NCBI RefSeq assembly: GCF_007559335.1
Contig: NZ_VMBG01000002.1
Span: 984,501 to 1,048,500 of the forward strand
Direction: 5' to 3'
Length of the DNA: 64,000 bases
DNA from: Rariglobus hedericola
GTDB lineage: Bacteria; Verrucomicrobiota; Verrucomicrobiia; Opitutales; Opitutaceae
Position 1 is the first letter of the stretch. Every line of letters starts with the position of its first letter. A program made the position numbers and the translations under genes. The notes under the pieces are model-generated. The model saw nothing but the letters and a program-made list of their open reading frames with translations, had not been told where the DNA came from and ran no database searches. Positions 7,671-41,770 of this stretch are shown here, piece by piece.

Positions 7671-7715
7671 GAAGGGCCGCTTGCCACTAATCGGTCCGGA
7701 AGGGGCGGCGGGTGG

Positions 7716-7788
7716 CGAGAATCGATGATTTCTGAACGTAACGCTTAGCCGCACCGTGAAAAATCCGGATTCTCGTCCAGAGTTTTTT
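7716..7788. terminator. Inverted repeat and T-run between convergent genes
   Basis: An 8-bp inverted repeat (7716-7723 with 7768-7775) with a long 44-base loop is followed by six T residues at 7783-7788, 8 bp before the 3' end of the convergent PEP-CTERM gene. It is a weak terminator candidate for the plus-strand rhamnosidase transcript. Confidence 0.3.
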
Positions 7789-7795
7789 CAGCGTT

Positions 7796-10120: not shown

Positions 10121-10186
10121 TCTGGGAAGGGGCTGCGGGGTGAGTGGATGCAGCATTGGGGCGTGGCGGTATGCGGGCAATTTAGC

Positions 10187-10209
10187 CCTCTCTTTACTGT
10201 AAAGAGAGG
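10187..10209. promoter_or_regulatory. Perfect 23-bp operator palindrome (core TTTACTGTAAA)
   Basis: Left arm 10187-10197, central T at 10198 and right arm 10199-10209 form a perfect 11-bp inverted repeat between the PEP-CTERM start (10120/10114) and the LacI start (10297). The inner core TTTACTGTAAA is shared with the site at 16208-16224, which lies in the same position of a paralogous gene pair. Confidence 0.75.
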
Positions 10210-10296
10210 TTGCGCCGCCTTTGCCTGAGGCTAGTTTGGGTTTCAGGGCATTCCGCTCTTCATTCCGGTGCATGCCGCTTCCGAGTCTTCCGTCCG

Positions 10297-11337: not shown

Positions 11338-11412
11338 CGGGCGTGCAGGCAGTATCAGTTCGCCACACGCACGGTGCCTCGTCGGGCTGCGTCGAACGAC
11401 GACGTGTAATGC

Positions 11413-12096
11413 TCAGTTGGCGACACGCTGTGTGTCGTGGGACGAGAGGTAGGACGCCGTGTCACGCGTGAAATCCGCGCGGAAAAGTTGAGCGACATCT
11501 TGCGAGCTCACGTGCCCGTCCAGGTAGAGGACGTTGTTGTTTTTGCCGTGGGGTTTGACGGTCGTGGCGATCAGGTGGGTGCCGAGTGTGCTGAAATCCA
11601 TCCAGCGTTTGCCGGCGGCAAGTTCCGTGGCCCATATCATTCTAGAGGGTTTGGAGATGGTCGTCATGGGTAGTTGCGAAGGATAAATATTAAATCCATA
11701 CGTTCCCCACTTCATGCCGTTGCCCGCGTCGTCGAGGTTCGAGCACATATAGGCGGCCATGTCGTTGGAATTGAATCCCCACTTTTGGGTCGAGTGGTTT
11801 GGCGGCATCACATAACGGATAAGACAGGAGTAGGCATCGGTCGACATATCGACATTATCGATCTTCGTTGTGCCGTGGACACTGGAGGGAAGACGGCCGT
11901 TATTGTCTGCGACAAAGAGTCCGGTGGCGTTGCCCCACGAGCGGAGGTTGGCCACGCATTGGGTGGCGCGGGCTTTCTCACGCATGGAGCCCAGCACAGG
12001 AATCAGGATCGCGGCGAGAACGCCGATAATCGCGATGACGGTGAGCAGTTCGACCAAGGTGAACGCGCGGCGGGATGAAAAACGATAGGTAGCCAT
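11413..12096 (-). CDS. Type II/IV pseudopilin with H-X9-DG motif
   Basis: The protein has 227 residues from the ATG at 12094-12096. The prepilin leader MATYRFSSRRA is followed by FTLVELLTVIAIIGVLAAILIPVL, the classic N-methylation site with Glu5 and the hydrophobic pilin helix. Near the C-terminus, His followed nine residues later by DG (PHGKNNNVLYLDGHV) is the H-X9-DG signature of a pseudopilin group expanded in Planctomycetota and Verrucomicrobiota. These proteins are processed by a prepilin peptidase and assembled in or exported by a type II secretion or pilus-like machine. It is the last gene of a likely operon after the PEP-CTERM and FAD-oxidoreductase genes, with a 98-bp gap that contains a small inverted repeat. 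It ends 76 bp from the convergent LacI gene. Its exact role is unknown. Confidence 0.85.
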   Translation of the reverse strand: MATYRFSSRRAFTLVELLTVIAIIGVLAAILIPVLGSMREKARATQCVANLRSWGNATGLFVADNNGRLPSSVHGTTKIDNVDMSTDAYSCLIRYVMPPNHSTQKWGFNSNDMAAYMCSNLDDAGNGMKWGTYGFNIYPSQLPMTTISKPSRMIWATELAAGKRWMDFSTLGTHLIATTVKPHGKNNNVLYLDGHVSSQDVAQLFRADFTRDTASYLSSHDTQRVAN

Positions 12097-12140
12097 AGGG
12101 TAATGGGGTTGCTGACAACCTAAGTTCTGCACGGACCGAG

Positions 12141-12172
12141 CCCGGTGAAAAGACCGGCGGTCGAGCACCGGG
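12141..12172 (-). other. Inverted repeat between FAD gene and pseudopilin gene
   Basis: A 7-bp inverted repeat (12141-12147 with 12166-12172) lies in the 98-bp gap within the operon. Just upstream, at 12188-12197, TGTTCGATCA differs from the window-wide TGTTYRAACA palindrome at one position, 92 bp before the pseudopilin start and overlapping the FAD gene's stop. Either could set separate expression of the pseudopilin. Confidence 0.3.
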
Positions 12173-12194
12173 ACTTTCTCAAGAGATTGTTCGA

Positions 12195-13550
12195 TCAAAC
12201 CTGCACGGCTTCCGGCAGGTAGGCGCCGACCTCGCGCAGGCGGGAGCGCAGGACGTCGGTATCGATGGCGTGGACGTCGGGAACCTCGTCACGGCTGGCT
12301 AGGGCAGCGGCTAGGCCGGCGGCTTCGCCCATCGACAAACACACGGGCATCACGCGGATGCTGCCGTGCACGGCGCGTTCGACGGAGATGTTGCGGCCGG
12401 CGACGAGGACGTTGCGCAGGCCTTTCGGTGTGAGGCAGCGGTAGGGGATGCCGTGGGATTCACCGGCCTTGTAGTGCTCGAAGCGATGCTCGGTGACTTT
12501 TTTTTTGATGCGCATCTCCTCGGCGGTGGCGTGGAGGTCGATGAAGTAGGCGTTGCGGCAGATCTCGTCGTCGAAGTCACGGCGGGTGAGCCAGTCGTCG
12601 AGTGTGAGCATGTAGTCGCCGACAATACGGCGGGTTTCGCGGATGCCGACCTGGGTGCCCGTGGAAACGAGGAAGGAGTTGCCGAACGCGGCGGGTGCGA
12701 ACTCGGCGAGCGCGCGTTGGTAGGCGTCGGCCATCTTGCGGCCTTCGCGGGCGGCGCGGGAGACGCTGACGGGGTCGGTGTTGTCCACATAGAACATGTG
12801 GCCGGCGTTGAAGCCCTGCGTGCCGGGACCGATTTTGTTGTGACACAGGTGGGTGTCGGGGATTTCTGGATACCGGCCGGAGGCGAGGATGGCGTGGATC
12901 GGGCTGAGCGGGTCGCCGCCGTAGAGACGGCCCGGGATCGCGGCGAGGGCGGCCTCGTCGACGTTGGCCAGCACGAAGCAGAGCGTGCCGGGCTGGAGGT
13001 TGCCGTTTTCGTCACCTTTTTGGAATTCGGCACCGGCCCAGGCGGAGAGGTCTCCGTCGCCGGTGCAGTCGACGTAAACGCGGGCCTTGAGGGCGCGGAG
13101 CCCGTGTTTGCCGGCGATGACGAGGGATGTGACATCACCGGACTCGTCGCGATTCACGGCGGCGAGGACGATTTGAAACAGCACCTCGACGCCGTGTTCG
13201 GCAAGGAGGTCGTCGTAAACGCGTTTGAGCTGCTCGGGGTTGATGGCGACCCAGTCGATCTGATCGGCGGGAACGTGCGGCGTGCCGCGTTTGGAGGCGT
13301 TGAGGATGGTTTCGGCGAGTCCGCGATAGATGAGCTGCTTGCGGTCGGAGAACGGGCACCACGCCGGCACGAGCGCGGTGGTGCCGCTGCCGCCGAGCGA
13401 CTGGGTTTGCTCGAGCAGCAACGTGCGAGCACCGGCGCGGGCAGCAGCCGCGGCAGCGGTGCAACCGGCGGGACCGCCGCCTACGACGATGACATCCCAG
13501 CTGGCATCGACTTCAAGGGAACGGGAGAACGGCAGCGTAGAAGCGGACAC
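12195..13550 (-). CDS. FAD-dependent oxidoreductase (FAD_oxidored/PF12831-like)
   Basis: This 451-residue flavoprotein starts at GTG 13550. The dinucleotide-binding fold is clear: DVIVVGGGPAGCTAAAAAAR at residues about 19-38, followed by the acidic residue of TLLLEQ that binds the FAD ribose. A second FAD segment, RVYVDCTGDGDLSAWAG, lies near residue 160, and a C-terminal ARNISVERAVHGS followed by MGEAAG near 390-420 completes the fold. The family includes enzymes that oxidise or dehydrogenate sugar-linked or small organic substrates, often encoded in polysaccharide clusters of this phylum. The substrate here cannot be read from sequence. It begins 15 bp after the PEP-CTERM gene and is probably co-transcribed with it. 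No signal peptide is visible, so it should be cytosolic. An alternative call would be a halogenase- or succinate-dehydrogenase-like flavoprotein. Confidence 0.8.
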   Translation of the reverse strand: MSASTLPFSRSLEVDASWDVIVVGGGPAGCTAAAAAARAGARTLLLEQTQSLGGSGTTALVPAWCPFSDRKQLIYRGLAETILNASKRGTPHVPADQIDWVAINPEQLKRVYDDLLAEHGVEVLFQIVLAAVNRDESGDVTSLVIAGKHGLRALKARVYVDCTGDGDLSAWAGAEFQKGDENGNLQPGTLCFVLANVDEAALAAIPGRLYGGDPLSPIHAILASGRYPEIPDTHLCHNKIGPGTQGFNAGHMFYVDNTDPVSVSRAAREGRKMADAYQRALAEFAPAAFGNSFLVSTGTQVGIRETRRIVGDYMLTLDDWLTRRDFDDEICRNAYFIDLHATAEEMRIKKKVTEHRFEHYKAGESHGIPYRCLTPKGLRNVLVAGRNISVERAVHGSIRVMPVCLSMGEAAGLAAALASRDEVPDVHAIDTDVLRSRLREVGAYLPEAVQV

Positions 13551-13565
13551 GGGGGGGAAGACAGA

Positions 13566-14390
13566 TTAGCGTTGGGTGCGGTTGCGGCGGAGCAGAGCGA
13601 CGAAGAGTGCGCCGCCGGAAGCGAGGAGCGCGTAGGAGCTCGGCTCGGGGATGGCGGAGATGGAAAAACTGTCAATTTGTAGATTGTGTGACGCGCTAGA
13701 CCCCGCTCGAATACCCACCTCGCCGAGACCAATTATGGCGGAGGTGGTGTCGGTCAGTGTGATCGTATTGCCGAGCTGGGTGCCGGTGGTGGTCCATATA
13801 GATGCCTCGAATCGCACGTTTGTGCCGACATCGGTGACCGTGAGCCTGGCGATGTAAAAGCTGTTCGTCGCAAACGAACCCGAAGTCCGCGTGATTGTTT
13901 GATCGCTCCCAATCTGGGTGCCAAGGGATAAGGGGGACGCAGGTTCATATAATCTGAAATCGGCGGTGGTGGCGCTGGTGAGGCGGAAAAGGGCTGCGTA
14001 GCCCACGCCGCCATTGATTTTGGTGAAAAAGCCGATGCCGGTGCTGGCAGCTGCCAGCTGGCTCGAGCTGAACGTGGCTTCGATGGTGAAATCACCGAAT
14101 GTATCGATCGGCGTGCCGCCGGTGGTGCCCCCGGCGCCGGCGGTGAGAGCACCGGTGGAGTGAGTGTTGTAAATCGCGCTGGTAGCCGTGCCGTTTGACT
14201 TGTAAAGGTAACCATTGGCTACGCTGGCGGTGAGATCTCCGCCGTTCGCTACTTCGTAGAAGTTATTGTCGTAGTCGGCAGCTGTATTGAACGTGAGCGT
14301 GACGGCGGACACGGTGTGGGCCAGCAGGACTGCGGCGGACAGGCCGGCGAATTGTTTCCAGGCGCCAGCGAGATGGGTCGGGTTTTTCAT
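13566..14390 (-). CDS. PEP-CTERM protein, concanavalin-like single domain
   Basis: This 274-residue exported protein has an N-terminal signal peptide ending near TVSA (about residue 29), a single beta-rich domain of about 200 residues, and a PEP-CTERM tail IPEPSSYALLASGG followed by a hydrophobic helix and RRNRTQR. The central domain (TFNTAADYDNNFYEV, IDTFGDFTIEATFSSSQL, GIGFFTKINGGVGYAALF) resembles LamG/concanavalin-type jelly rolls that bind glycans. It lacks the PATR repeats of the larger paralogues and is closest in style to the protein at 15353-16162. It is the first gene of a likely operon with the FAD oxidoreductase (15-bp gap) and the pseudopilin. It is divergent from the AraC gene, with paired ATCATGAT boxes in between. 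Confidence 0.8.
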   Translation of the reverse strand: MKNPTHLAGAWKQFAGLSAAVLLAHTVSAVTLTFNTAADYDNNFYEVANGGDLTASVANGYLYKSNGTATSAIYNTHSTGALTAGAGGTTGGTPIDTFGDFTIEATFSSSQLAAASTGIGFFTKINGGVGYAALFRLTSATTADFRLYEPASPLSLGTQIGSDQTITRTSGSFATNSFYIARLTVTDVGTNVRFEASIWTTTGTQLGNTITLTDTTSAIIGLGEVGIRAGSSASHNLQIDSFSISAIPEPSSYALLASGGALFVALLRRNRTQR

Positions 14391-14444
14391 GGGGAAATGA
14401 GCTCGTGCAAGAGGGTCATCCGCAAATTAACTCGATTTCGCTCT

Positions 14445-14472
14445 ATCATGATTGGTATCAAAATATCATGAT
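14445..14472. promoter_or_regulatory. Paired ATCATGAT boxes, AraC-type operator candidate
   Basis: Two copies of the palindrome ATCATGAT (14445-14452 and 14465-14472) are spaced 20 bp apart, two helical turns, on one DNA face. They lie between the PEP-CTERM gene and the AraC gene. The second copy overlaps the preferred AraC ATG at 14468, which suggests autoregulation. Confidence 0.5.
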
Positions 14473-15349
14473 CGCATCACCGCCGCTACGGCTCTCGTTG
14501 CACGAATGGGCCAGTCTGCAGACTGAGCTCATCTGGGTTTATGACGGTGTTGTGGACCCGGAATACCGCCATCTGCGCACGGCGGATGGGCGTGCCGGTT
14601 ACTGGGCGCGTTATGTGCGGTCGGGACAGGTTCGGCTGAGTAGCCCGGCCGGTGTGCTCGAAGCGGGGCCGGGTCAGTGGCTCACGGGGGCGCGCGAAAA
14701 AGGGGCGATCGATGTCACGGATGACGCGCGTATTCTCTCGATACACTTTCTTTGCCAGTGGCCGACCGGGGATGACTTTTTTGGAAAGTTCGGCGTGCGG
14801 ATGATTTCCGATGAGGTGTGTTCGGCGCTGAGAAAACAAGCGGAGCAGTTGCAGCGCAGTGTGCGGAAGAGTCATCCGACGGCGAAGGTGGGCTACTCGC
14901 ACGAACAGGCGGCGTATCCGGATTTTTTGCGGCAGCAGGCGTTGTTTGTGAATTGGCTGGCGACGTGGTGCGAAACGCTCGCGGCACAGGGTTGCCGGCC
15001 GACGTATGGCGGCAGCGGTGACGAGCGGCTGACACGCGTGGTGCGACGGCTCAACGAGTCCCCAATGGCCGCGGGTTTCCCCAAGGAGTTGTTACGCGCG
15101 GAGGCGCAACTGAGTCCGGGACAGTTGGACCTGAAGTTTGTGCAGGCCTTTGGGTTGAGTCCGTGGCGTTATTGGGAGCGCCGACGGTTGGAACATGCAA
15201 AGCGTCGTCTGGCGCAGGCGGAGATTCCTGTGAAGCAGGTCGCCTATGAATTGGGCTTCAAGAGCGACGCCCATTTCGTGGCATGGTTCCGAAGACTGGC
15301 CGGAGATGCACCGGGGCGGTTTCGGGCGAAGCCGATGGGCGACCGGTAA
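14468..15349 (+). CDS. AraC/XylS-family transcriptional regulator
   Basis: The protein has 293 residues if it starts at the ATG 14468; a GTG at 14405 would add 21 residues that show no conserved features. The N-terminal half is a cupin-like effector domain (WVYDGVVDPEYRH, SPAGVLEAGPGQWLTG). The C-terminal 100 residues hold the two helix-turn-helices of the family: LDLKFVQAFGLSPWRYWERRR, then VKQVAYELGFKSDAHFVAWF and RLAGDAPGRFR. AraC regulators usually activate adjacent sugar genes on ligand binding. It is divergent from the PEP-CTERM/FAD/pseudopilin operon, its likely target. It ends 3 bp before the convergent PEP-CTERM gene. Confidence 0.85.
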   Translation: MIASPPLRLSLHEWASLQTELIWVYDGVVDPEYRHLRTADGRAGYWARYVRSGQVRLSSPAGVLEAGPGQWLTGAREKGAIDVTDDARILSIHFLCQWPTGDDFFGKFGVRMISDEVCSALRKQAEQLQRSVRKSHPTAKVGYSHEQAAYPDFLRQQALFVNWLATWCETLAAQGCRPTYGGSGDERLTRVVRRLNESPMAAGFPKELLRAEAQLSPGQLDLKFVQAFGLSPWRYWERRRLEHAKRRLAQAEIPVKQVAYELGFKSDAHFVAWFRRLAGDAPGRFRAKPMGDR

Positions 15350-15352
15350 GGC

Positions 15353-16162
15353 TCAGTGCGAGCTGCGCGAGCGCTTAAAAGCAACGAGTCCGAGGGCGGC
15401 GAGTCCGACGAGGGCGGCGTAGGTGGAGGGTTCGGGGATGGTGCCTTGGGTGACGAGCACGTTGTCGACGGCGAACGGTATCGCGGTGCCGCCTTCACCG
15501 AGGATGATCCGGTTGAAAGTGAAATCGCTTATGCTGTTGGACGTGACCGACGTGTAGGTGGTCCCGTCAAGGGTTGCAATGAAGGAGAGCGACGATGCAC
15601 CACTGCGGGTGATCGTCATGGAAAACGTGTGGTATGCGGTATTGGTGATCGACTGGGCGACGCCGGGTGTCGGTGAGGTGGTATAGGTAGCACCACCTCC
15701 TGATATGGAGTCGGGACTACTAAACTCTTTAAATCCGCCGGGTGCGGTTCCGCCCGTGCCGATGTGAAAGAGATACGTCTTGGTTGCGGTGCTGAAGCCG
15801 AAGCGAAACCCGGCGTCTGCTGCCCCCGGATTGGAGGTTGCGCGCAAGTCCAGGGAAAGAGTGATCGAGTCGTTGGCACCTCCATTGGTCAGAGCCGTAG
15901 CGCCGGTATCAGCCTTGACGGCAAAGAAAGTAGTAGCGCTTTGGGTCAGTGCGTTGGACGTGACAGATAGAGTGCCGGCAGTGGTTGTCCATGCGGTGTC
16001 CAAAGGATCGGCACCGTTGGTGAGGCCGCCGTCGTTGAACTGATCGTCGACGAGGATGGTGGCGGCATGCGCGGAACTGACGGCGGAGACGGCCAGCAAT
16101 CCGGCCAAAAGGCAGGCGCCTATCGAGTAACCTTTGGGGAGAGCAGATTGAACGGGGTTCAT
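15353..16162 (-). CDS. PEP-CTERM protein, concanavalin-like single domain
   Basis: The protein has 269 residues from the ATG at 16160-16162; a TTG two codons earlier is also possible. The signal peptide ends near SSAHA (about residue 33). A single beta-sandwich follows (LVDDQFNDGGLTNG, DSITLSLDLRATSNP, FRFGFSTATKTYLFHIG), like LamG-type glycan-binding or exported lectin-like folds. The tail IPEPSTYAALVGLAALG plus FKRSRSSH is a PEP-CTERM signal for exosortase-dependent anchoring. It is divergent from the LacI gene at 16299 across a perfect TTGTTTAC/GTAAACAA palindrome and is therefore a likely direct target. It ends 3 bp from the convergent AraC gene. Confidence 0.8.
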   Translation of the reverse strand: MNPVQSALPKGYSIGACLLAGLLAVSAVSSAHAATILVDDQFNDGGLTNGADPLDTAWTTTAGTLSVTSNALTQSATTFFAVKADTGATALTNGGANDSITLSLDLRATSNPGAADAGFRFGFSTATKTYLFHIGTGGTAPGGFKEFSSPDSISGGGATYTTSPTPGVAQSITNTAYHTFSMTITRSGASSLSFIATLDGTTYTSVTSNSISDFTFNRIILGEGGTAIPFAVDNVLVTQGTIPEPSTYAALVGLAALGLVAFKRSRSSH

Positions 16163-16207
16163 GACCAAAAATACTGGAAATTTTTAAGTCGTCGGCAACG
16201 GGGCGAC

Positions 16208-16224
16208 TTGTTTACTGTAAACAA
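16208..16224. promoter_or_regulatory. Perfect 17-bp operator palindrome (core TTTACTGTAAA)
   Basis: Arms 16208-16215 and 16217-16224 around a single T form a perfect 8-bp inverted repeat, placed between divergent PEP-CTERM and LacI starts. The 11-base core TTTACTGTAAA is identical to that at 10187-10209. Confidence 0.75.
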
Positions 16225-16298
16225 TCGAATTTTGCGCGCTGTGATATGGAGTTGCGCGTGTCGTCATCCCATTTTCCCAAGCCTCGATTTAGGATTTT

Positions 16299-17336
16299 AT
16301 GAAACGTATTTCCATGCAGGACATCGCGGATGCGGCAGGCGTGTCGCGGATGGCGGTTTCATATGCATTGAGGAATAACCCCAAGGTGCCGGCGACGACC
16401 CGCGAGCACATCAAGAAGATCGCTGAAAGTCTGGGTTACCGGCCCGACCCGCTCATCCAGCGATTGTCGGTGCATCTGGCGAATGCGCGCAGGTCGCCCC
16501 ATGCGGGCTGTATCGGTTATATCACTACGGATCACACCAAGTCGGCTTGGCAGGGGATTCCTGCGTATCGGACTGCGTTCAACGCCGTGGTGGAGCGGGC
16601 GGAACAGCTGGGTTATCGGACTGAGGAATTCTGGCTGGGTGAACTGGGCATGACTGCGGCGAAACTGAGCCGTATTCTCACGCACCGCGGCGTGGCTGGA
16701 ATCGTCATGGCACCCGTGCCGGGAGGGATGAAACCGCCGCGTTTGAAGTGGGCGGATTTTGCGAGTGTGGCGTTGGGATATTCCATGCGTGCACCGGCGG
16801 TGCACCGCGTCGTCAATCATCAGCTGCATACCGGACTCGAGGCGATCCGGCAACTGCAGTCCCTCGGGTATCACCGGATCGGACTTTGCGTGAGCCGCGA
16901 CCAAAATGACCGCGTGGATAACGCCTGGTTACACACGATGCTTTTTCATCATTCGTGTGTCGCGAGTTTACGACGGGTGGCTCCATACATGCCTGATGAG
17001 CTGACACGTGAGGGGATTCTCCGTTGGGTGGCGGACGAGAGTCCTGATTGTTTGCTGGTTCAGGATCAGTTCGTCCGAGTTTATCTGACGGAGGCCGGTT
17101 ACCGCGTGCCAGTGGATTTGGGCGTCGTCATGCTGGACCACAACGCAGCGAACGAGCCCGATTTCGCGGGCATGAAACAGCGGCACGACAAGATTGGCGC
17201 CGCTTGCGTCGATCTCTTGGTGGCCCAGATTCACCGCAATGAAAAAGGCCTGCCCGCGGCACCGCTCACCGTGATGATAGACGGCGAGTGGGTGTCGGGG
17301 GCGACGGTGAAGATGCGCGGGTCGAAGACGGTTTAG
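16299..17336 (+). CDS. LacI-family transcriptional regulator
   Basis: This 345-residue protein starts MKRISMQDIADAAGVSRMAV, with an AGGA ribosome site 4 bases before the ATG. Its recognition helix SRMAVSYALR is the same as in the regulator at 10297-11337, and the two stay collinear to the end (shared blocks RPDPLIQRLS, FWLGE.GMT.AKLSRIL, FAGM.Q.HD.IGAACVD). The effector domain is of the sugar-binding type. The two genes look like an in-window duplication whose copies each kept a divergent PEP-CTERM neighbour and the same operator core. Cross-regulation is therefore likely. Its last 4 bp overlap the end of the convergent GH74-like gene. Confidence 0.9.
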   Translation: MKRISMQDIADAAGVSRMAVSYALRNNPKVPATTREHIKKIAESLGYRPDPLIQRLSVHLANARRSPHAGCIGYITTDHTKSAWQGIPAYRTAFNAVVERAEQLGYRTEEFWLGELGMTAAKLSRILTHRGVAGIVMAPVPGGMKPPRLKWADFASVALGYSMRAPAVHRVVNHQLHTGLEAIRQLQSLGYHRIGLCVSRDQNDRVDNAWLHTMLFHHSCVASLRRVAPYMPDELTREGILRWVADESPDCLLVQDQFVRVYLTEAGYRVPVDLGVVMLDHNAANEPDFAGMKQRHDKIGAACVDLLVAQIHRNEKGLPAAPLTVMIDGEWVSGATVKMRGSKTV

Positions 17337-19519
17337 TTGCCGCGTCCCGAGGAATCGATATCACCGACCATGGCGCCGTTGCCGGTGGTGCCGAAGTAAA
17401 CGCGTCCGAAGACACGGCGGTCAGCAGTCATACAGAACGGAGACTTGCCGATGGCGGGAACACCGAGATCGGTCCACGTCGCGCCGTTGTCGATTGAACG
17501 GAAGAGGCTCTTCTCGACCTCGCCCATTTTGCCGAGGATGTAAACGGCGGGAACTCCGGGATTGGTCGGCGAGGCTTTGCCCACCGCCATGAACTCCGCG
17601 CTGTCGATGCCGGCGATTTTGGTGAACGTCGCGCCGGAATCGATGGAGTGGAATAGACCTTGTTTCGCCATGCCGATCCAGACGTCGCCCTCCTTGCCGG
17701 GGGTGGTTTCGATGGTGAGCGGGTCGGTGGGGTAGGAGTTGGGAAGGCTGGCGGCTTGGACGAACGTCGCGCCGCCGTCGCTGCTTACATGCACGCGACC
17801 GTAATGGTAAACGTAGAATTTTTTTCCGTTCACCTTGTCGGCGGCCAACGGGAAGCGGGGGCCGGTGGAGAAGACGTTGTTGCCACCGATGAGAATGCCC
17901 TTCGGCAACGTGGTGATGGCCGTCCAAGTGTTGCCGCGATCCGTGGAACGGTAGGAGCCGTTTTGCTGGGTGACCCAGACCATGGTCTCGCTGGTGGCGG
18001 AGACGGCGATGCGGCCGCCGGCGGCGTCGGACGGGCTCTTCCACTGAGTGTAGGTGGTGCCGCCGTCGGTGGAGTAGCCGCAGTAGGCGGCGCCGTCCCA
18101 AGAGATGCGACCGACGCGGGCGATGAAGTTGGGGTTGGTTTCCTGAACGGCCACACCGGTCATGTTGCCGCTGCCGCTGATGGTCTTGGTGAAGATGTGG
18201 GGGAAGAACTTCATCATGCCTACGACGGGCGACTCGGTGATCGATTTGTGGTCCCAGCCGCCGATGTCGGCGACCGAGGAGTGGAGAACGTTGGTGCCCG
18301 AGCCGGGGGAAAGCAGGTTGCCGATGTAAACGGTTTCCTCATGGCCTGTGGATTGCGACTTCCAGGTGACCGAAGGCGAGGCCCACACGTCATCGGTTTT
18401 GTAGGCGAAGAAAAAATCGGTGAACCAGACGGTGGCTGGCTTGAAGGGATCCCAGCAGAACGTGCTCGTGGCCTGGCCGATGGAGGAGGCATACCACGGG
18501 GATTCGGACTTGTCGTGGGACTTGTTCATCATGGCCCAAGTTACACCGCCGTCCTTGCTGCGGTAGTGGTTGAATTGATACGGGGAAAACGAGCAGCTGC
18601 TGACGACGACCTGGTCTTTGTTCTGCGGGTTGACGGCGACGGCTGAGTAAGTGCCGGGCGTGGGCGGGCTGATGGTGGTCCAGGCGTTGTTGCTCCATTT
18701 GAACACGCCACCGTTGGGCTTGCCGGTCCAAGGGTTGCCGGCCGTCACATAGAGGACGCCGCTGGAGTGGAGGCTGACGCGGGTGGCGGTGACCGGGCTG
18801 CCGGGCATGAGGGTGAACGTCGCGCCGCCGTCGGTGCTGAGCTGCACGCCTTGCGAGGTGCCGATGTAGATCGTGCGGGTGACGCCGTTGACCATGCCGC
18901 CACTGGGATCGAAGAGGACGAAGTTACCGCAGAGGTCATTCACTTTTTCCCACGAGCCGGGCGCGCCGCCGCGGGTGGTCTTAAACGTGCCGTTGGTCTC
19001 GGTGACCTGCGCATCCTTGGCACCGCGCGTGGTGACATAAACGACGGAGCTGTTGTTCGGATCCACGGCGATGCGCTGGCCGGCGCCCTGCTCCTTGTTG
19101 GGATTCACATCGAGGCGGATCTGGCAGTCGCCCCATGTGTTGCCGCGATCAACGGATTTGAGAACCGTGCCGTCCACGGACCACGCGCCGCCGGTGGTGA
19201 GGTAGAGTGTGTTGCCGGTGGCGTCACTGGGATCGAACGCCAGACGGGCGGCGGCGCTACGGTTTTCCCAACCCTTGGGACCGTTTTTGTAGAGCAGGCC
19301 TTCCCAGCGTTGTTCGGTCGCGTTCCAGCGGTAAGGCGTGCCGACGTCGGTGGTGATGAAGTAGAGGTTCTTCACCTTGGGATGCGCCTGGATGGTGGTG
19401 GTTGCACCGCCGCCGCCGACGCGAACCGGTTTCCACGTGTAGGATTGGGCGTGGGTGCAGCCGGTGAAGGCGGCGATCGCAAGGGCTCCGGCAAGCAGGG
19501 TTTTGGTGAACGATTTCAT
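17333..19519 (-). CDS. GH74-like beta-propeller, probable lipoprotein
   Basis: This 728-residue exported propeller has an N-terminal hydrophobic segment that ends in AAFTGCTHAQ, a near-lipobox with Cys at about residue 21, so lipid anchoring is possible. The mature start YTWKPVRVGGGGATT followed by TTDVGTPYRW matches the GH74 opening, in which the Asp of TD-V/I-G is catalytic. About eight Asp boxes follow (KSVDRGNTW, RSKDGGVTW, RSTDRGNTW, RSIDNGATW). The C-terminus ADRRVFGRVYFGTTGNG is the usual GH74 end motif. The family cleaves the beta-1,4-glucan backbone of xyloglucan; this substrate is a family inference. The gene is 25 bp downstream of the SGNH esterase gene and is likely co-transcribed with it. 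It overlaps the convergent LacI gene by 4 bp. Confidence 0.85.
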   Translation of the reverse strand: MKSFTKTLLAGALAIAAFTGCTHAQSYTWKPVRVGGGGATTTIQAHPKVKNLYFITTDVGTPYRWNATEQRWEGLLYKNGPKGWENRSAAARLAFDPSDATGNTLYLTTGGAWSVDGTVLKSVDRGNTWGDCQIRLDVNPNKEQGAGQRIAVDPNNSSVVYVTTRGAKDAQVTETNGTFKTTRGGAPGSWEKVNDLCGNFVLFDPSGGMVNGVTRTIYIGTSQGVQLSTDGGATFTLMPGSPVTATRVSLHSSGVLYVTAGNPWTGKPNGGVFKWSNNAWTTISPPTPGTYSAVAVNPQNKDQVVVSSCSFSPYQFNHYRSKDGGVTWAMMNKSHDKSESPWYASSIGQATSTFCWDPFKPATVWFTDFFFAYKTDDVWASPSVTWKSQSTGHEETVYIGNLLSPGSGTNVLHSSVADIGGWDHKSITESPVVGMMKFFPHIFTKTISGSGNMTGVAVQETNPNFIARVGRISWDGAAYCGYSTDGGTTYTQWKSPSDAAGGRIAVSATSETMVWVTQQNGSYRSTDRGNTWTAITTLPKGILIGGNNVFSTGPRFPLAADKVNGKKFYVYHYGRVHVSSDGGATFVQAASLPNSYPTDPLTIETTPGKEGDVWIGMAKQGLFHSIDSGATFTKIAGIDSAEFMAVGKASPTNPGVPAVYILGKMGEVEKSLFRSIDNGATWTDLGVPAIGKSPFCMTADRRVFGRVYFGTTGNGAMVGDIDSSGRGN

Positions 19520-19544
19520 GGTATCAAAAGGGTGGGGTCAGGGC

Positions 19545-20312
19545 TCAGGGTTTCAGCAAGGCGGTCACGGCGGGCTGGATGGCGTCGGCCAGAATCGTGT
19601 AGCCCTCGGTGGAAAGATGAACTTGGTCGGACTTGAAGAGAGCCGGCGTGATGGTGCCTCCCGCGTTTAGGAATTTGGCGGAGGCGTCGATGAACTGGAT
19701 TTTGCTTTTGGAGGCGTAGGCGGACAGCTCCTTGTTGAGCGCGGCGGTGCGATTGGTGAAAAACGCGTTCTGGCGCGGGAGCACGCCGAGCAGCAGAACT
19801 TTGGCGGCCGGGGCCTTGGCGTGAATAAGGCCGACGATCTTCGCGACGCCTTCGGTGATCTCGGCATCGGTGCCGGAGTTGTGGTCGCTGTAGATGTTGT
19901 TCGTGCCGATCATGAGCACGACGAGCTTGGGGTTGAGGTTGTCGATCTCTCCGTTTTCGAGACGCCAGATGACCTGCCTCGTGCTGTTACCGCCGATACC
20001 GTAGTTGGCGGCTTTCAGCGGGGCGAAGCGGGCGTCCCAAACGGTTTTGCCTTCTTTGTCCCAGAGCGCGGTGAGTGAGTCGCCGAGAAACAGGATGTCC
20101 ACGCCGCCCTGTGCGGTGCGGGCGAGGAGTTTTTGGTGAAGGCCGGCCCAACCGGATGCCCAGCCTTTGTAGAAACCCCAGCCGGCTTCGGACGGTTTTG
20201 CTTTGGGCGGAAAATCGTCGGTGGGTTGGGCCAGCGCGCGGCCGGTGAGTGCGGCGAGCACGAGGCCGGTGAACGCAAGACGGCAAAAACGAAAGAAGGC
20301 GGGTGACTTCAT
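19545..20312 (-). CDS. Secreted SGNH/GDSL-family esterase
   Basis: This 255-residue protein has a signal peptide ending at ALA (about residue 28). All four SGNH blocks are present: FLGDSLT with the nucleophile Ser79, NYGIGGNST with the oxyanion Gly at about 105, IGTNN with Asn at about 138, and DQVHLS with Asp229 and His232. The sequence style matches PAF-acetylhydrolase-IB-like bacterial members, several of which are carbohydrate acetyl esterases. Removal of O-acetyl groups from plant polysaccharide is the likely role. A TGTTYRAACA-type site lies 103 bp upstream, and a GH74-like gene follows after 25 bp, so this pair probably forms its own transcript. Confidence 0.88.
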   Translation of the reverse strand: MKSPAFFRFCRLAFTGLVLAALTGRALAQPTDDFPPKAKPSEAGWGFYKGWASGWAGLHQKLLARTAQGGVDILFLGDSLTALWDKEGKTVWDARFAPLKAANYGIGGNSTRQVIWRLENGEIDNLNPKLVVLMIGTNNIYSDHNSGTDAEITEGVAKIVGLIHAKAPAAKVLLLGVLPRQNAFFTNRTAALNKELSAYASKSKIQFIDASAKFLNAGGTITPALFKSDQVHLSTEGYTILADAIQPAVTALLKP

Positions 20313-35092: not shown

Positions 35093-36058
35093 TTACTGTG
35101 TCGCCCGGCGGCGATATTCGCCCGGGGAGAGCCCGGTTATTTGGCGGAAGCGGCGGAAGAAGTAGAACTCGGTGCGAAAGCCGAGCGAGTAAGCGATGTC
35201 CTTGATGCCTCGATCGGTGCCACACAGTTCATGGCAGGCCTGCTCGATGAGATGGCGCGAGCGAAAGGTGGTCGGCGAAACGCCGCACAGACGTTTGAAT
35301 TTTTTTCGATATGCCTGCTCGCCGAGACCGAGGGCCTTGGCGGCTTCTACCAAGTTGAGCGGGACGGTGGTCGGAAGATCGATCAACCAGGCACGCGCGG
35401 TGTGGATCCACTCCATGGCGTGATCCGAGTGGGGACGGATCCACGTTGAACACATCTCGGCAATCAATGCGATCAGCCGGCCCGTGTCTGCGAGCGCGGG
35501 CTCGAGGCCTTTTTTTGCGAGTGGCAGCACGCTTTCATGGAAACGACCCAGCCAATAATCCATCGGTGCGAGCCGCCGGATCGGCTCGGCGGGATCCAGC
35601 AGGTCGGTGCCGGTCCAGGCGCTGAAGGCGGGGCCTGAAAACTCGATGTTGATCTCGTTCCAGCGGGTTCCGGGGAGCGGACAATAAACGTGACCGACAT
35701 CGGGAAACAGGCAGAGCAGGTCGCCTGCGCGGATGGGCTGGTCGGTTTTGCCGCGTTCATCTGAAAAGAGTCCTTCGCCCTCCAGCAGATAAACCAACGA
35801 GAAGACTTTCAGCCGGCGGAAGGTTTTTTCGCGGTTCTGGTTGATCATGCCCCAGCTGCGATGGATCTGCGCGCTCCGCGTCATGCCGCCCGTCGGGAGG
35901 GCGTGGAACGATTCCATGATCAGCCAGTAATCACGGGTCTCGCCCGGTATAATACCGGATTGGACAGTGTATTTACCGCCATGTGTATCGCTAAGGGCTT
36001 TTAGCGACGGCCGTTTTTCTGAGAGTTTGGGGCGTGGCTTCACGAGCAGAGTGAACAT
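35093..36058 (-). CDS. AraC-family transcriptional regulator
   Basis: This 321-residue protein has a cupin-type sensor domain (about 60-150; LEGEGLFSDERGKTDQPIRAGDLLCLFPD is its core pattern, beginning near residue 92) and a C-terminal AraC domain with VEAAKALGLGEQAYRKKFK and IKDIAYSLGFRTEFYFFRRF. It is divergent from the sialidase-like/DapA/PEP-CTERM/FGGY operon with only 21 bp between start codons. A GTGAAC/ATTCAC-type palindrome (36051-36062) overlaps its own start codon. Control of that operon is the obvious role. Confidence 0.87.
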   Translation of the reverse strand: MFTLLVKPRPKLSEKRPSLKALSDTHGGKYTVQSGIIPGETRDYWLIMESFHALPTGGMTRSAQIHRSWGMINQNREKTFRRLKVFSLVYLLEGEGLFSDERGKTDQPIRAGDLLCLFPDVGHVYCPLPGTRWNEINIEFSGPAFSAWTGTDLLDPAEPIRRLAPMDYWLGRFHESVLPLAKKGLEPALADTGRLIALIAEMCSTWIRPHSDHAMEWIHTARAWLIDLPTTVPLNLVEAAKALGLGEQAYRKKFKRLCGVSPTTFRSRHLIEQACHELCGTDRGIKDIAYSLGFRTEFYFFRRFRQITGLSPGEYRRRATQ

Positions 36059-36062
36059 TCAC
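36051..36062. promoter_or_regulatory. Near-palindrome GTGAACATTCAC over the AraC start
   Basis: The 5-base arms GTGAA and TTCAC flank two central bases and cover the AraC ATG (36056-36058), 18 bp before the divergent operon start. It is a possible autoregulatory operator. Confidence 0.35.
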
Positions 36063-36079
36063 CCAAGTAAATATCCCCC

Positions 36080-37264
36080 ATGTCGCAAGCCAATCCGAGC
36101 GTATTGATCGCCAAACCGAGTATCGAAGTCGTGCCCGGTCAGATTATTTATCACCGTAAAACAAATACCGGAGAGTATATAGGCTCTCCGAGTATCGCGA
36201 TCCTGCCCGATGGTGCCTACGTGGCTTCGCACGATGTGTTCGGACCGGGCACGACGGAGCACTCATCGGGGGTTTCGTTTGTTTATCGCAGCGAGGATTG
36301 CGGAGTGACGTGGCGGAATGTGGCACGGATCGAGCCGGCGTTTTGGTCTAATCTGTTTGTGCACACCGGTGCGCTTTATCTGTTCGGGACGACGCATCAT
36401 CACGGCCTCGTGGTCATCCGGCGCAGCGACGACGGAGGGTTCACGTGGACGCAGCCGAAGGACGAGTGCTCGGGGTTGCTTACCGCGAAGGGACATTTTC
36501 ACACCGGGCCAATGCCGATGCTTATGCATCGCGAAAGAATCTGGCGCGCGGTGGAAAATGCCGGAGACGGCGGTGCGTGGGGCGAGCGTTATTTGCCGAT
36601 GCTGATGTCGTCTCCGGTCGATGCGGATCTGTTGTGCAGCGAGAGCTGGACCTGCACGCGGCCGATGGCGCATTCGACAACGTGGTTGGGCGGGGCGTTT
36701 GTCGGCATGTTGGAAGGCAACGCGGTGCTCACTCCGGCGGGTGCGGTTGGCAACTTGTTGCGCGTGGCTTGCCCGGACGGGGAGAAGGCGGCTCTGGCGG
36801 TGTTGTCGGCGGACGGTGCGGAGCTGAAATTTTCTCCCGACAGCGGCTTTGTCGATTTGCCGGGAGGGGCGGCGAAATTCACGGTGCGATACGATGCGGA
36901 GAGCGGACGTTACTGGACGTTGTCCAACTGGGTGCCCCCGCGTTACGAGGGCAGCGGCAACGCGTCGCTGGTGCGCAACACTCTCGCGCTGCTCTGCTCG
37001 GCGAATCTGCGCGATTGGGAATTGCGTGCCGTGGTGTTGCATCACCCGGATGCGAAACGACACGGCTTCCAATACGTGGACTGGCTCGCTGACGGCGACG
37101 ACCTCGTGGCTGTGTCGCGCACCGGTCATGACGATGCCTGGGGCGGCGCGCTCAAGGCGCATGACGCGAACTATCTCACTTTTCACCGGGTATCCCGATT
37201 CCGGACCCTCACGCCGGGGGACTCGTCGGTATCCGTGGACGAACTTAAAACACCCGCCTTATGA
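36080..37264 (+). CDS. Sialidase-like (BNR) protein, no signal peptide
   Basis: This 394-residue protein is predicted to be a propeller with two clear Asp boxes, YRSEDCGVTW (about 72) and RRSDDGGFTW (about 115), and an N-terminal YIGSPSIAILPDG segment typical of sialidase-superfamily blade one. Late in the protein, HPDAKRHGFQYVDWL and TGHDDAWGG fit later blades. Sialidase-superfamily enzymes include exo-sialidases, trans-sialidases and plant-glycan lyases. The arginine triad of true sialidases could not be assigned, so the substrate is open. It is leaderless and presumably cytosolic. Its stop overlaps the DapA-family start by 4 bp, indicating translational coupling, and it opens a four-gene operon. 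Confidence 0.75.
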   Translation: MSQANPSVLIAKPSIEVVPGQIIYHRKTNTGEYIGSPSIAILPDGAYVASHDVFGPGTTEHSSGVSFVYRSEDCGVTWRNVARIEPAFWSNLFVHTGALYLFGTTHHHGLVVIRRSDDGGFTWTQPKDECSGLLTAKGHFHTGPMPMLMHRERIWRAVENAGDGGAWGERYLPMLMSSPVDADLLCSESWTCTRPMAHSTTWLGGAFVGMLEGNAVLTPAGAVGNLLRVACPDGEKAALAVLSADGAELKFSPDSGFVDLPGGAAKFTVRYDAESGRYWTLSNWVPPRYEGSGNASLVRNTLALLCSANLRDWELRAVVLHHPDAKRHGFQYVDWLADGDDLVAVSRTGHDDAWGGALKAHDANYLTFHRVSRFRTLTPGDSSVSVDELKTPAL

Positions 37265-38199
37265 ACTTTGCCGCCTCTTCCGTTCAGTATCGTGGAATCA
37301 TTCCGCCGATGGCGACGCCGTTGCGCGCGCGTGACGAGCTCGACGTGCCCGGGCTGGAGCGGTTGATCGAGCACATGCTGGCGGGAGGCGTGCATGGGCT
37401 TTTTGTGCTCGGCACGACGGGGGAAGCTCCGGGGCTGAGCTACCGGTTGCGACGCGAGTTGATCGAGCGCACCTGCCGGCAGGTGGCCGGCCGCGTTCCG
37501 GTGTTGGTCGGCGTGACGGACACGTCGATGGTGGAAGCACTGGGGCTGGCGCGGGTGTCACAGGAAAACGGAGTGAACGCGTTGGTGGTGGCTCCACCGT
37601 ATTATTTTCCGAACAGCCAGCCCGAACTCACCGAATACATCCAGCACCTCGCGGCGGAACTGCCACTGCCGTTCTTTCTCTACAATATGCCGTCGCACAC
37701 GAAGACCGTGTTCGACTTGGAGACGGTGCGTCGTGCGATGGCGCTGCCCAACGTGATCGGCATGAAAGACAGCTCGGCGAACATGGTTTATTATCACCAA
37801 CTGGTGCGCCTGCTGCCCGAGCGTCGTGATTGGACGCTGCTGATGGGACCCGAGGAGCTGCTCGCGGAGTCGGTGTTGTTGGGCGGCCATGGCGGCGTGT
37901 GTGGCGGAGCCAATCTATGTCCGCAGCTTTATGTCGAGCTTTACGAGGCGGCGGTGGCGCGGGATTTGGCGCGCGTGGCCGAACTCCATGCGAGGGTCAT
38001 GCACATTTCCTCCACGCTTTATCGAGTGGGCCGGCATGGTTCGGCGTTCATCAAAGGCCTGAAGTGCGCGCTGAGCGAGTCGGGTATCTGCGACGATTTT
38101 ATGACCGAGCCTTTTCACCGATTCCGCGAGCCGGAACGGGCGCAGGTGCGCGAACGACTCGCCGAGCTTGGATTGCTGCGCGAGGCCGTCCGCGCGTGA
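37261..38199 (+). CDS. DapA/N-acetylneuraminate lyase-family aldolase
   Basis: This 312-residue protein is a class I aldolase-type TIM barrel. Family motifs are present: GTTGEAPGLS (about 51-60), YYFPN (about 117), LYNMPS with the active-site Tyr (about 141) and GMKDSSAN with the Schiff-base Lys (about 168). The family includes dihydrodipicolinate synthase, N-acetylneuraminate lyase and 2-keto-3-deoxy-sugar-acid aldolases. The GTTGE loop is common to all of them, so biochemistry must decide. Coupling to a sialidase-like gene suggests cleavage of a 2-keto-3-deoxy sugar acid to pyruvate plus an aldehyde, rather than lysine synthesis. Start by 4-bp overlap with the upstream gene. Confidence 0.85.
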   Translation: MNFAASSVQYRGIIPPMATPLRARDELDVPGLERLIEHMLAGGVHGLFVLGTTGEAPGLSYRLRRELIERTCRQVAGRVPVLVGVTDTSMVEALGLARVSQENGVNALVVAPPYYFPNSQPELTEYIQHLAAELPLPFFLYNMPSHTKTVFDLETVRRAMALPNVIGMKDSSANMVYYHQLVRLLPERRDWTLLMGPEELLAESVLLGGHGGVCGGANLCPQLYVELYEAAVARDLARVAELHARVMHISSTLYRVGRHGSAFIKGLKCALSESGICDDFMTEPFHRFREPERAQVRERLAELGLLREAVRA

Positions 38200-38229
38200 A
38201 CCTTTTTTCGATTTAACCCCAACCCCAAC

Positions 38230-40107
38230 ATGAAAAATCCCATGAACAACCCCACCGCTCAACCCAACGGACGGCGCTTTCTTATGCCGCTCCTGATGAT
38301 TTCCCTGTCCGGCGCAGGTGTCGCGATAGCCCAGACCTTCAACTGGACGCCGACCGCCGGAGGGACATACGCGTGGAACGACGTTGCGAGCAACTGGACC
38401 AGCGGCTTCCCGAACGGGACAGACGTCATCGCCGATTTTTCGACGGATATCGCCGCGAACCAGACGGTCTCATTGAACGAGGCGATCACGGTTGGCGCGC
38501 TTACGCTGAATGACACGGGGGCAAGCGGTGACAGCAATTTCACGATCCAGACGGGCACGGCCGGCAGTCTGAATTTCCAGGTTTCCACCGGTAACGCGAC
38601 AGTGACGAACGGCAGCGGTGCCAACGTGATCTCCGCGCCTGTTACGCTGACGAGCAACACTGCGTTTAATATCTCCACGGGCACCACACTCACGCTCTCG
38701 GGTGCGGTGGGCGGTGCGGGCACACTCACGCAGTCCACGGGCACCGGCACGCTGGTGCTTTCAGGGGCCAACAACTACACGGGCGCGACGACGGTGAATG
38801 CGGGCGTGTTAAAAATCTCCAATGCAGCCTCTCTGGGCGGAACCGCGGCGGGCACCAGCGTGCTCGGCGGCACTGCGGGCGGCGGGTTGCAAATCGAGGG
38901 GGGCATCACGGTCGCCGACGAGACGCTTACGATCTCCTCGGGTGCCAGTGGTTCGGCCAATGCCCTGCGCAGCTTGAGCGGAGACAATAGCTGGACCGGC
39001 ACGATCACGATTCAGCACAACAATAATAACATCATCACGGTCGATGCGGGCACGCTGACCCTGGGCGACATCGTCACGGTTACGGGATCCGGCCGCATCG
39101 CGGCCTTTCAGGGCGCGGGCAACACGGTGGTGCAAGGCGTGATCAGTGGACCTGGTTCCGTGTCGCGCAGCAGCGGATCGGGTGGTGTCACTACTCTGGA
39201 AGGACTCAACACCTACACGGGAAGCACCTCGGTGACGCAGGGAACGCTGAGCATCAAGACGCTGGCCAACAGTGGATCCGCGAGCGGCATCGGCGCATCG
39301 GGCACGATCAATTTGCAGGGGGGAACCTTGCGCTACACGGGCACGGGGCATTCGACGGACCGCTTGTTCACGCTGGCTGGCGGCACCAACACGGTATCCA
39401 AAATCGAAGCCAACGGCAGCGGTGCGATGACGTGGGCCAACACGGGCGCGATTCTTCACGGTGTCGTGGACCGCAATTTCACGCTCAAACTGGGCGGCAC
39501 CAGCACGGAGGCGAACACGCTGGCGTCCGCGATCACCGACAACGGGACCGGCATCGTGAGTCTCACCAAGGAAGACGCGGGTCGCTGGGTGATCTCGGGA
39601 GCCAACACGTTTGACGGCGCGACCACCGTGACCGGCGGCACATTGGCGCTGGGGGCGAACAACGCGTTGTCCGCAACGAGTGCGATCACGTTGTCGGCCG
39701 GCACGATCGACCTGCAGACCTTCAGCAGCTCGGCGGCCTCGCTGGGGTTCGCCGGTGGGGCGAATCTGAAGTTCAGTCTCGGCACGCCGGAGAACTCGAC
39801 GGCGTTGCTGGCGTTGACCGGAAATCTGACGAAGAGCGGCAGCGGACTCTACACGCTGGATTTTTCGGGAACGGGGCAGGCGGGCACTTATAACCTGATT
39901 AGTTACGCGGGAACCTCGTTCGCGTCCACGAGCGACTTCACGATTGCCAACCTGGGGACCGGACTCGACGCCGTGCTCTCGCTGGGCTCCGGCAACCTGA
40001 GCCTGACGTTGACCACGAGTGGGATTCCCGAGCCATCGTCGTTCGCGTTGATCGCGGGTGTTCTGATGTTGGGAGTGGCGACAATCGGCTCGCGCCGTCG
40101 CGGTTGA
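38230..40107 (+). CDS. PEP-CTERM surface protein with beta-strand repeats
   Basis: This 625-residue protein has a signal peptide ending GVAIAQ (about residue 36). Its N-terminal block ([28 protein letters not shown]) is collinear with that of the protein at 24668-26329. PATR repeats follow, for example [36 protein letters not shown] and [18 protein letters not shown], predicting a right-handed beta-helix. The tail is [17 protein letters not shown] with GSRRRG, an exosortase signal. Unusually, it sits inside an operon of leaderless metabolic enzymes, 30 bp after the aldolase gene and 4 bp before the FGGY kinase gene. This links surface display directly to the catabolic route. Confidence 0.85.
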
Positions 40108-40111
40108 TATC

Positions 40112-41770
40112 ATGACGGATCCAATCTGTCTGGGCATTGATGTCGGCACCGGCAGTGCACGCGCGGGTCTCTTCACTCCGCGTGGGCGGATGTTGGCATC
40201 GGCGAGTCACCCGATTCGTATGTGGAAACCGGAGCCGGATTTCGTCGAACAGTCTTCCGACGATATCTGGCGGGCATGCTGCCTGGCGGTGCGCGAGGCG
40301 TTGGAGAAAAGCGGAGTGGCGCCGGAGCAGGTGTGCGGAGTGGGCTTCGACGCGACCTGTTCCCTAGTGGTGCTTGATGACAAGAGCCGTCCCGTGACGG
40401 TCAGTCCGACGGGGAAAGCCGCGCAAAATGTCATTGTATGGATGGATCATCGCGCAAAGGGGCAGGCCTCGCGGATCAATCGAACGCGACACGCGGTGCT
40501 CAAGTATGTCGGCGGCGCAATCTCTCCGGAGATGCAGACGCCGAAGCTGCTTTGGTTGAAGGAAACCATGCCGGAAACCTGGAGACGTGCGGCGGCATTT
40601 TTTGATCTGCCGGATTTTCTCACGTATCGGGCCACCGGTGACGACACGCGTTCGTTGTGTTCCACGGTCTGCAAGTGGACCTATCTCGGTCAGCGCGGCG
40701 GCGAGGGGCAGGGGTGGGATGCGGGCTATTTTCGTGAGATCGGGCTCGGCGATCTTGCCGGCGAAGGATTCCGCCGCATCGGCACCCGTATTCGCCCGAT
40801 GGGCGAGCCGGCAGGCTGTGGATTGACCGAGCAATCGGCGCGGGAACTCGGGCTCGTCGCCGGGACACCGGTGGGCGTGTCGGTGATCGACGCCCATGCA
40901 GGAGGGCTCGGCATGCTTGGCGCATCGCTAAAAGGGAAAACTGATCTCCGCGGACGTCTCGCGCTGATTGGCGGAACCTCGTCATGCCACATGGCCGTGG
41001 CGAAGCAGCCGCGCTTCATCCGTGGAATTTGGGGACCTTATTTTTCCGCGATGATTCCCGGTCTCTGGCTTGCGGAGGGCGGACAGTCGGCCACGGGCGC
41101 GTTGGTGGATCACGTGATTTTTTCGCATCCCGCTTCCGCGGACATGATGAAGCTCGCGAAGCGCAACAAGCGGACGATTTACGAGGAGCTGAACGTGCGG
41201 CTCGAAGCAATGGTCGGGGCTGAGCGGGTATTATTTCCGGCCGCGTTGACGAGAGACCTGCACGTGCAGCCTGATTTTCACGGCAATCGTTCCCCGCGCG
41301 CGGATGCTTCGCTGCGGGGGGTGATTGCGGGATTTTCTTTGTCGAAGGATGCTGACGATCTTGCCCGGCTTTATCTGGCGACCATCCAGGCGGTGGCTTA
41401 CGGCACCCGACACATCATCGAAGAGATGAACAAGGCGGGGCACGGCATCCGCTCGATTTTTATCTGCGGCGGCGGAGCGAAAAACCCCGTCTTTTTGCGT
41501 GAACATGCCGACATCACCGGTTGCGAGCTGATCCTCCCGGCGGAGCCCGAGGCGGTGCTGTTGGGTGCGGCGGTGCTGGGCGCGGTGGCCTCGGGGGAAT
41601 GGCCCTCGGTTGAGAAGGCGATTGCCATGATGAATGTAGCGGGGCGTCGTATCCGGCCGAAAGGCGGAAAAACGGGAGCGTATCACGATTTGAAATACAA
41701 AGTGTTTCACCGCATGCACGCGGACTTCAAGGCCTGCCGGCGTTTGATGGCGCCGGCGGCCGGAGGTTAA
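40112..41770 (+). CDS. FGGY-family carbohydrate kinase (ribulokinase-like)
   Basis: This 552-residue protein has both ATPase lobes of the FGGY family: [14 protein letters not shown] at about 8-21 (phosphate-1 loop) and an adenosine-side GGGAKNP near residue 450. Between them IVWMDHRA (about 109) and [14 protein letters not shown] (about 255) are typical of the ribulokinase/ribitol-kinase branch. Length and motifs fit D-ribulose or related pentulose/polyol kinases rather than xylulokinase or rhamnulokinase. The substrate is not decided by sequence. It ends the operon that starts with the sialidase-like gene and begins 4 bp after the PEP-CTERM stop. Confidence 0.87.

Follow-up and report, generated by a model that had tools for sequence, protein, structure and literature searches.

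Background

The acidic sugar 2-keto-3-deoxy octulosonic acid (Kdo) is present in the lipopolysaccharide of most Gram-negative bacteria, and to our knowledge Kdo aldolase activity (EC 4.1.2.23) is known only biochemically. L-fucose isomerases also act on D-arabinose. In nan-type sialic acid catabolism, a sialidase-fold protein and a DapA-superfamily lyase are accompanied by an N-acetylmannosamine (ManNAc) kinase and an epimerase; excerpts of PMC13220900 deal with the substrates of the lyase NanA. According to excerpts of PMC4016182 and PMC13220900, enzymes of the N-acetylneuraminate lyase (NAL) family make and cleave Kdo, weakly, their activity on Kdo and D-arabinose being much below that on the main substrates. 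In Escherichia coli, as parts of PMC12307932 describe, D-arabinose is catabolized by L-fucose isomerase and the D-ribulokinase DarK, inserted in the fucose locus and serving D-arabinose use. Here we describe a gene cluster of Rariglobus hedericola located in the stretch C2:984501-1048500 of a 4.15-Mb genome (64,000 nucleotides, hereafter the window), in which genes for a sialidase-like protein, a DapA-family aldolase, a surface protein and an FGGY kinase stand next to a divergent araC gene. Our tentative, though plausible, reading is that the locus, under control of AraC, serves the breakdown of a 2-keto-3-deoxy octulosonic acid, with Kdo as the likeliest candidate.

The locus resembles nan-type systems in its sialidase-fold protein, its DapA-superfamily lyase and the NanQ-like genes of some related loci, but a pentulose kinase replaces the ManNAc kinase and epimerase, the lyase scores below the nanA cut-offs, and the sialidase-like protein has no signal peptide and apparently misses the first arginine of the triad. 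With D-arabinose catabolism of E. coli it shares an FGGY kinase bearing the D-ribulokinase motif, and fucose-isomerase-type genes at some related loci; here, in contrast, a predicted aldolase would supply the D-arabinose, and the isomerase is encoded outside the operon. The reaction predicted for the dapA product is that of Kdo aldolase. As in the PEP-CTERM/exosortase sorting treated in part of PMC1569441, the surface protein has a signal-like N-terminus and a PEP-CTERM-like tail in a genome with exosortases, whereas the model PF07589 does not detect this tail and the gene lies inside a catabolic operon. A search of Creative Commons-licensed papers found none on genes dedicated to Kdo catabolism and none under the name Kdo aldolase, nor a described pathway with this set of genes, and an earlier note on this DNA had recognised none either. 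The locus, whose parts all come from known families, would represent a variant of ulosonic-acid catabolism that is undescribed as far as this search reached.

Results

The sialidase-like gene (36080..37264, plus strand) and dapA (37261..38199, plus strand; Pfam DHDPS, 187 bits) share an ATGA as stop and start, which gives a 4-bp overlap. The surface-protein gene (38230..40107, plus strand; autotransporter repeat of the beta-helix type, PATR 66 bits) follows after 30 bp and the kinase gene (40112..41770, plus strand; Pfam FGGY_N/FGGY_C, 84/177 bits) after a further 4 bp, while araC (35093..36058, minus strand; Pfam HTH_18, the AraC helix-turn-helix, 68 bits) is divergent. The order, strands, overlap and gaps given in the earlier note thus all hold. 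From the spacing, a single transcript for the four genes is likely; in the gap between dapA and the surface-protein gene no terminator was listed, and the RNA fold was like that of shuffles (z 0.18). A hydropathy heuristic, which is not a signal-peptide predictor, found a strongly hydrophobic N-terminal stretch in the surface protein and none in the three enzymes, in agreement with the previous view that only the third gene product is exported.

The sialidase-like, DapA and kinase genes are the conserved core. The same 387 genomes of the phylum were searched with each protein at cut-offs of 1e-60 (sialidase-like), 1e-90 (DapA) and 1e-120 (kinase), which gave matches in 21, 37 and 14 genomes. 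Without regard to shared ancestry, the sialidase-like protein co-occurred with DapA in 11 genomes (2.0 expected, p 2.5e-7) and with the kinase in 5 (0.8 expected, p 4e-4), and DapA with the kinase in 5 (1.3 expected, p 0.0065). All 4 genomes of this set seen to contain a sialidase-like gene without signal peptide, as in the window, hold both partners. Eight genomes with such a signal-less gene, the window's own included, contain a close DapA in 7 cases, the kinase in 8 and an isomerase-like gene in 6.

Around 18 kinase loci the fetched stretches carried a DHDPS-family gene at 11, a sialidase-like gene at 7 (three of the window's family and four from two other families) and a fucose-isomerase-like gene at 4. 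Five of the 11 DHDPS-bearing loci (G078, G091, G456, L040 and the window; G and L numbers are our labels of genomes and loci) have the close DapA type in a genome with a signal-less sialidase-like gene. The close DapA type was present in 10 of the 80 sialidase-like loci kept for counting, the best of 252 stretches confirmed among 267 pattern matches. Thirty-one stretches with a close DapA, gathered partly with DapA and partly with sialidase-like bait, contained sialidase-like genes (12), FucI (2), the isomerase-like type c11 (2), NanQ-like genes (3), a kinase or ribulokinase homologue (5), a sodium symporter (6) and a major facilitator superfamily (MFS) transporter (6); in L186 and L188 the DapA next to the kinase scored below the bit cut-off of this set. 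Single-linkage clusters of sialidase-like open reading frames merge several families, and the counts rest on stricter searches. The named loci resembling the window belong to Verrucomicrobiota.

This linkage of three enzymes across genera makes it improbable that we are dealing with an ordinary glycan-degradation cluster whose neighbours share no pathway. Such a reading would suit the density of carbohydrate-active and PEP-CTERM-like genes in the window, and the accessory character of the operon, which follows from the lack of a close sialidase-like gene in 12 genomes of the same genus (one weak match, 5e-12).

The kinase scores 688 bits with the pentulose kinase model TIGR01315 (cut-off 409), and its closest solved chain is 3gg4 (E 6e-203). 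Its residues 82-86 (codons at 40355..40369, plus strand, counted by hand from the open reading frame) read TCSLV, which we take to be the published D-ribulokinase signature; the motif is found in all 14 clustered kinase homologues and, by six-frame reading, in 18 of 18 kinase loci. The enzyme is therefore predicted to be a D-ribulokinase. Identities as L-ribulokinase or xylulokinase were rejected, since their models stayed below cut-off whereas TIGR01315 lay far above its own.

The dapA product has the lysine, tyrosine and GxTGE of class-I aldolases of the dihydrodipicolinate synthase (DHDPS)/NAL superfamily, namely Lys169 (Schiff base), Tyr141 and GTTGE; among 34 aligned proteins, K169, Y141, G51, T53, G54 and E55 each show a conservation of 90% or more. 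After YNxP it carries a histidine at the place of the arginine that we take to be the DHDPS substrate-binding residue. The protein was rejected as DHDPS of lysine synthesis, with 160 bits against a cut-off of 206 and this active-site arginine replaced by histidine, and as N-acetylneuraminate lyase (113.5 bits against 281; 90.5 bits against 382). Its closest solved chain, 4xky (E 1.6e-110), is named dihydrodipicolinate synthase and presumably comes from Bacteroides thetaiotaomicron; YagE, named probable 2-keto-3-deoxy-galactonate aldolase, is the next closest.

The kinship with YagE suits the idea that the module degrades another 2-keto-3-deoxy acid (a hexonate, a pentonate or 3-deoxy-lyxo-heptulosaric acid, Dha), or that aldolase and kinase use different sugars from one polysaccharide. 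It is also favoured by L194, L195, L197 and L253, where a TCSLV kinase of this type has a partner from a distinct DapA group, and by the operon containing no isomerase gene. We consider it possible but on the unlikely side, as the close DapA is accompanied by pentulose kinases (L040, L192 and the window) or ribulokinases (L100, L220) and by fucose-isomerase-type genes (L100, L192, L200, L201), a company that speaks for a single pathway by way of a pentulose.

The clearest such case is the Tannerella locus L100 (1431-18291), where FucI (1053 bits, cut-off 775) overlaps dapA in one cluster with a ribulokinase, a NanQ-like gene, a sialidase-like gene and a sodium symporter. In the genome of the window itself a fucose-isomerase-like gene (9785-11413) is found in L227 (C1, 8786-12196), 15 bp before a class-II aldolase-family gene and next to a divergent AraC-type gene. 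The model of its product resembles L-fucose/D-arabinose isomerases (Z 35.9/35.3, 337 aligned residues) more than L-arabinose isomerases (about 30).

The only Pfam model that the sialidase-like protein reaches is BNR_2, below cut-off (22.5 against 31.4 bits), and two Asp-box-like stretches are present in its sequence. Its AlphaFold model (mean predicted local distance difference test score, pLDDT, 92) has the sialidase propeller fold, with VIA Z 31.1 to the catalytic domain of NanA, a root-mean-square deviation of 3.1 and 317 aligned residues. In an alignment of 53 chosen sequences E212, R228, R299 and Y332 are invariant (53/53); by the spacing in known sialidases, R228 and R299 are presumably the second and third triad arginines, and E212/Y332 the Tyr/Glu nucleophile pair. 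The arginine of the RIP motif of sialidases aligns with the invariant Gly35-Ser36 in these 53 rows, so the family appears to be without the first arginine of the carboxylate-binding triad; we call this loss only apparent because the profile alignment is weak there, and another invariant arginine could stand in. The protein may work like a sialidase, and we do not file it as GH33 (glycoside hydrolase family 33). The top Foldseek rows also hold GH93 arabinanases, so a non-ulosonic substrate is possible.

Ahead of the core, 39 of the 53 rows have a strongly hydrophobic stretch, defined as a mean of at least 1.9 over 10 residues. Eight others, with the window protein among them, have none (maximum 1.7) and fall on one side of a branch with support 100/99, while six (L044, L045, L047, L054, L087, L163) have long upstream open frames without such a stretch and are not classifiable. 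By this heuristic, whose margin is narrow for three rows, most relatives are exported, and the window's protein belongs to a well-supported group without signal peptide.

The sialidase fold would also fit a sialic-acid or Kdn (2-keto-3-deoxynononic acid) module, with a sialidase, an aldolase like N-acetylneuraminate lyase and a kinase on the side. NanQ-like genes near dapA in L092, L100 and L106 (106.6/160 bits with the N-acetylneuraminate anomerase model for L092) agree with it, and so do the amidohydrolase, SIS-domain, BadF-type kinase and nagB-like genes (the last recognised by eye) beside the dapA of L192. This module is nevertheless quite improbable: the 113.5 bits of DapA stand far below the NAL-model cut-off of 281, the window operon has neither ManNAc kinase nor epimerase, and the first triad arginine is apparently missing. 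We also know of no role of a pentulose kinase in sialic acid breakdown. In L192 (G142, 6138-16270) the four genes lie on one strand and are followed on it by DapA, a fucose-isomerase-like gene, a DHH protein and a TCSLV kinase.

As to the surface protein, the earlier note had called it a PEP-CTERM protein. It has a signal-like N-terminus, and its tail (40027..40107, plus strand, including the stop codon) is PEP-CTERM-like by eye and by regular expression; a PF07589 search did not report it even at E<=5. The same genome has 43 PF07589 and 6 exosortase matches, seven related genomes have 12 to 78 PF07589 matches each, and the regular expression finds seven such tails in the 64-kb window, alongside several sortilin-like propellers. 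With tails so frequent across a glycan-degradation region, it is no surprise in itself that the operon should contain one, nor is the mixture of exported and cytosolic proteins, which occurs in many related loci.

The surface gene had been proposed to form a unit with the enzymes, and this part was not supported. Kinase and dapA are directly adjacent, with no surface gene between, in G078 (47 bp), G091 (33 bp) and G456 (22 bp), an arrangement of the kind that the note had itself named as a refutation and which places the surface gene outside the conserved core; in G078 the sialidase-like gene lies 169 bp beyond the pair. In L040 a regulator and a GDSL gene separate kinase and dapA, again with no surface gene. 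Among the loci of the sialidase-like set no strong match to the surface protein was found near the sialidase-like gene, only a partial one of 40% in L107, about 7 kb away. Different repeat proteins with PEP-CTERM-like tails accompany the AraC/sialidase-like genes of G017, G078 and G455, each time between a pseudopilin-like gene and c19, and such proteins are also close to the kinase of G017 and of G456, so a looser association of tailed repeat proteins with the module may exist.

These neighbours, together with the tight gene spacing, would favour a functional partnership, for instance a glycan-binding scaffold made only while the pathway runs. The kinase-dapA arrangements of the three genomes and L040 speak against it, and although tails are seen by regular expression in 5 of the 8 signal-less-group stretches, the background is high and the window protein matches the other repeat proteins only partly (at best about 30% over 235 residues). 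Given that background, enrichment around the group loci is not claimed, a partnership is considered unlikely, and the protein is treated as accessory to the proposed Kdo module, not as a defined part of it.

The starts of araC and the sialidase-like gene, read from the sequence, are 21 bp apart (36059..36079), so the operon promoter overlaps the araC coding sequence or araC starts further in. Compared with the window AraC, the homologues of G017 and G091 lack about 15 residues at the N-terminus, and the true start is possibly about 15 codons further in. Of the 8 group loci, the window included, 6 have an AraC homologue no more than two genes away from their signal-less sialidase-like gene. Alignment of the gap across four loci showed only scattered invariant columns. 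In L042, of a neighbouring sialidase-like group and at a contig end, a partial AraC match (41%) adjoins the sialidase-like gene.

The window is dense in glycan-degradation genes, with rhamnosidase-type, GH35 and GH28 genes, several sortilin-like propellers, a GDSL hydrolase and a flavin adenine dinucleotide oxidoreductase; two polysaccharide deacetylases flank the operon, one on each side. Among 123 searched stretches a homologue of the Pfam DUF3748 protein occurs in 14, three with a close DapA and 11 without, and sulfatase-like genes recur there by eye. In L246 (G017, 9480-20000) a kinase, LacI-type and XylR-type regulators, a PEP-CTERM-like repeat protein, another DHDPS-family gene, a sialidase-like C8 gene and a sodium symporter are grouped.

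Discussion

The results agree with the earlier suggestion that an aldolase and a pentulose kinase form the centre of a catabolic module, whose substrate is plausibly a 2-keto-3-deoxy sugar acid. We propose that a Kdo-bearing oligosaccharide would be taken up into the cell, where the sialidase-fold protein, a predicted ketosidase whose signal peptide would have been lost in this lineage, would free Kdo in the cytosol. The predicted Kdo aldolase encoded by dapA would then cleave it to pyruvate and D-arabinose, an isomerase of the L-fucose/D-arabinose type, encoded elsewhere in the genome, would convert D-arabinose to D-ribulose, and the FGGY kinase would phosphorylate the latter to D-ribulose-5-phosphate for the pentose phosphate pathway. 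If D-arabinose is the sugar product of the aldolase, this points to Kdo. Rhamnogalacturonan II (RG-II) of pectin contains Kdo, according to a reference title, and the rhamnosidase-type, GH35 and GH28 genes of the window are in keeping with pectin. The surface protein would be a co-directional, probably co-transcribed, accessory passenger which may bind or display glycan.

Several observations weigh against this reading. The co-occurrence p values become 7e-6, 0.017 and 0.086 once the genome of the window is left out together with one member of a pair from the same genus. No DHDPS-family gene lies near 7 of the 18 kinase loci, and no isomerase near 14; in G017 and G236 the kinase is not linked to the close DapA, and G455 has no DapA match at 1e-40, a divergent DHDPS-family gene adjoining its kinase. 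The scatter of the kinase-adjacent DapAs over a quick DapA tree (three label changes) speaks for the reading, as the pairing may have had several origins; on the other side, the strongly supported branches alone force one change only, a value as low in 19 of 500 shuffles, and may be compatible with a single origin. The apparent lack of the first triad arginine means that a ulosonic-acid ligand is not assured, and the sialidase-like N-termini examined come from 11 of the 21 matching genomes. The isomerase is the weakest link of the pathway model: outside the operon and beside a class-II aldolase-family gene, it could belong to a separate pathway; in G078 and G455 its neighbours include, by eye, a lactonase-like and a sugar-porter-like gene, and the search of G236 and G454 gave no homologue. 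The operon has no transporter gene, and an MFS candidate from a related locus had no match in the window's genome in a search without positive control.

A bolder version would make this a dedicated Kdo pathway, including the gene for Kdo aldolase, fed by a new family of two-arginine sialidase-fold ketosidases that is exported in most lineages and moved to the cytosol a single time, in Opitutales, where an AraC switch controls it. We regard it as rather unlikely in this full form.

The surface gene inside a cytosolic operon has turned out to be the less informative half of what the earlier note had observed. If the proposed pathway is true, a gene would be assigned to Kdo aldolase activity. The cluster offers a testable set of genes and draws attention to a sialidase-fold family of wide occurrence, without an assigned substrate in the literature searched. 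For the bacterium, these genes probably open up an unusual acidic sugar as food, our best guess being Kdo from plant or bacterial surfaces.

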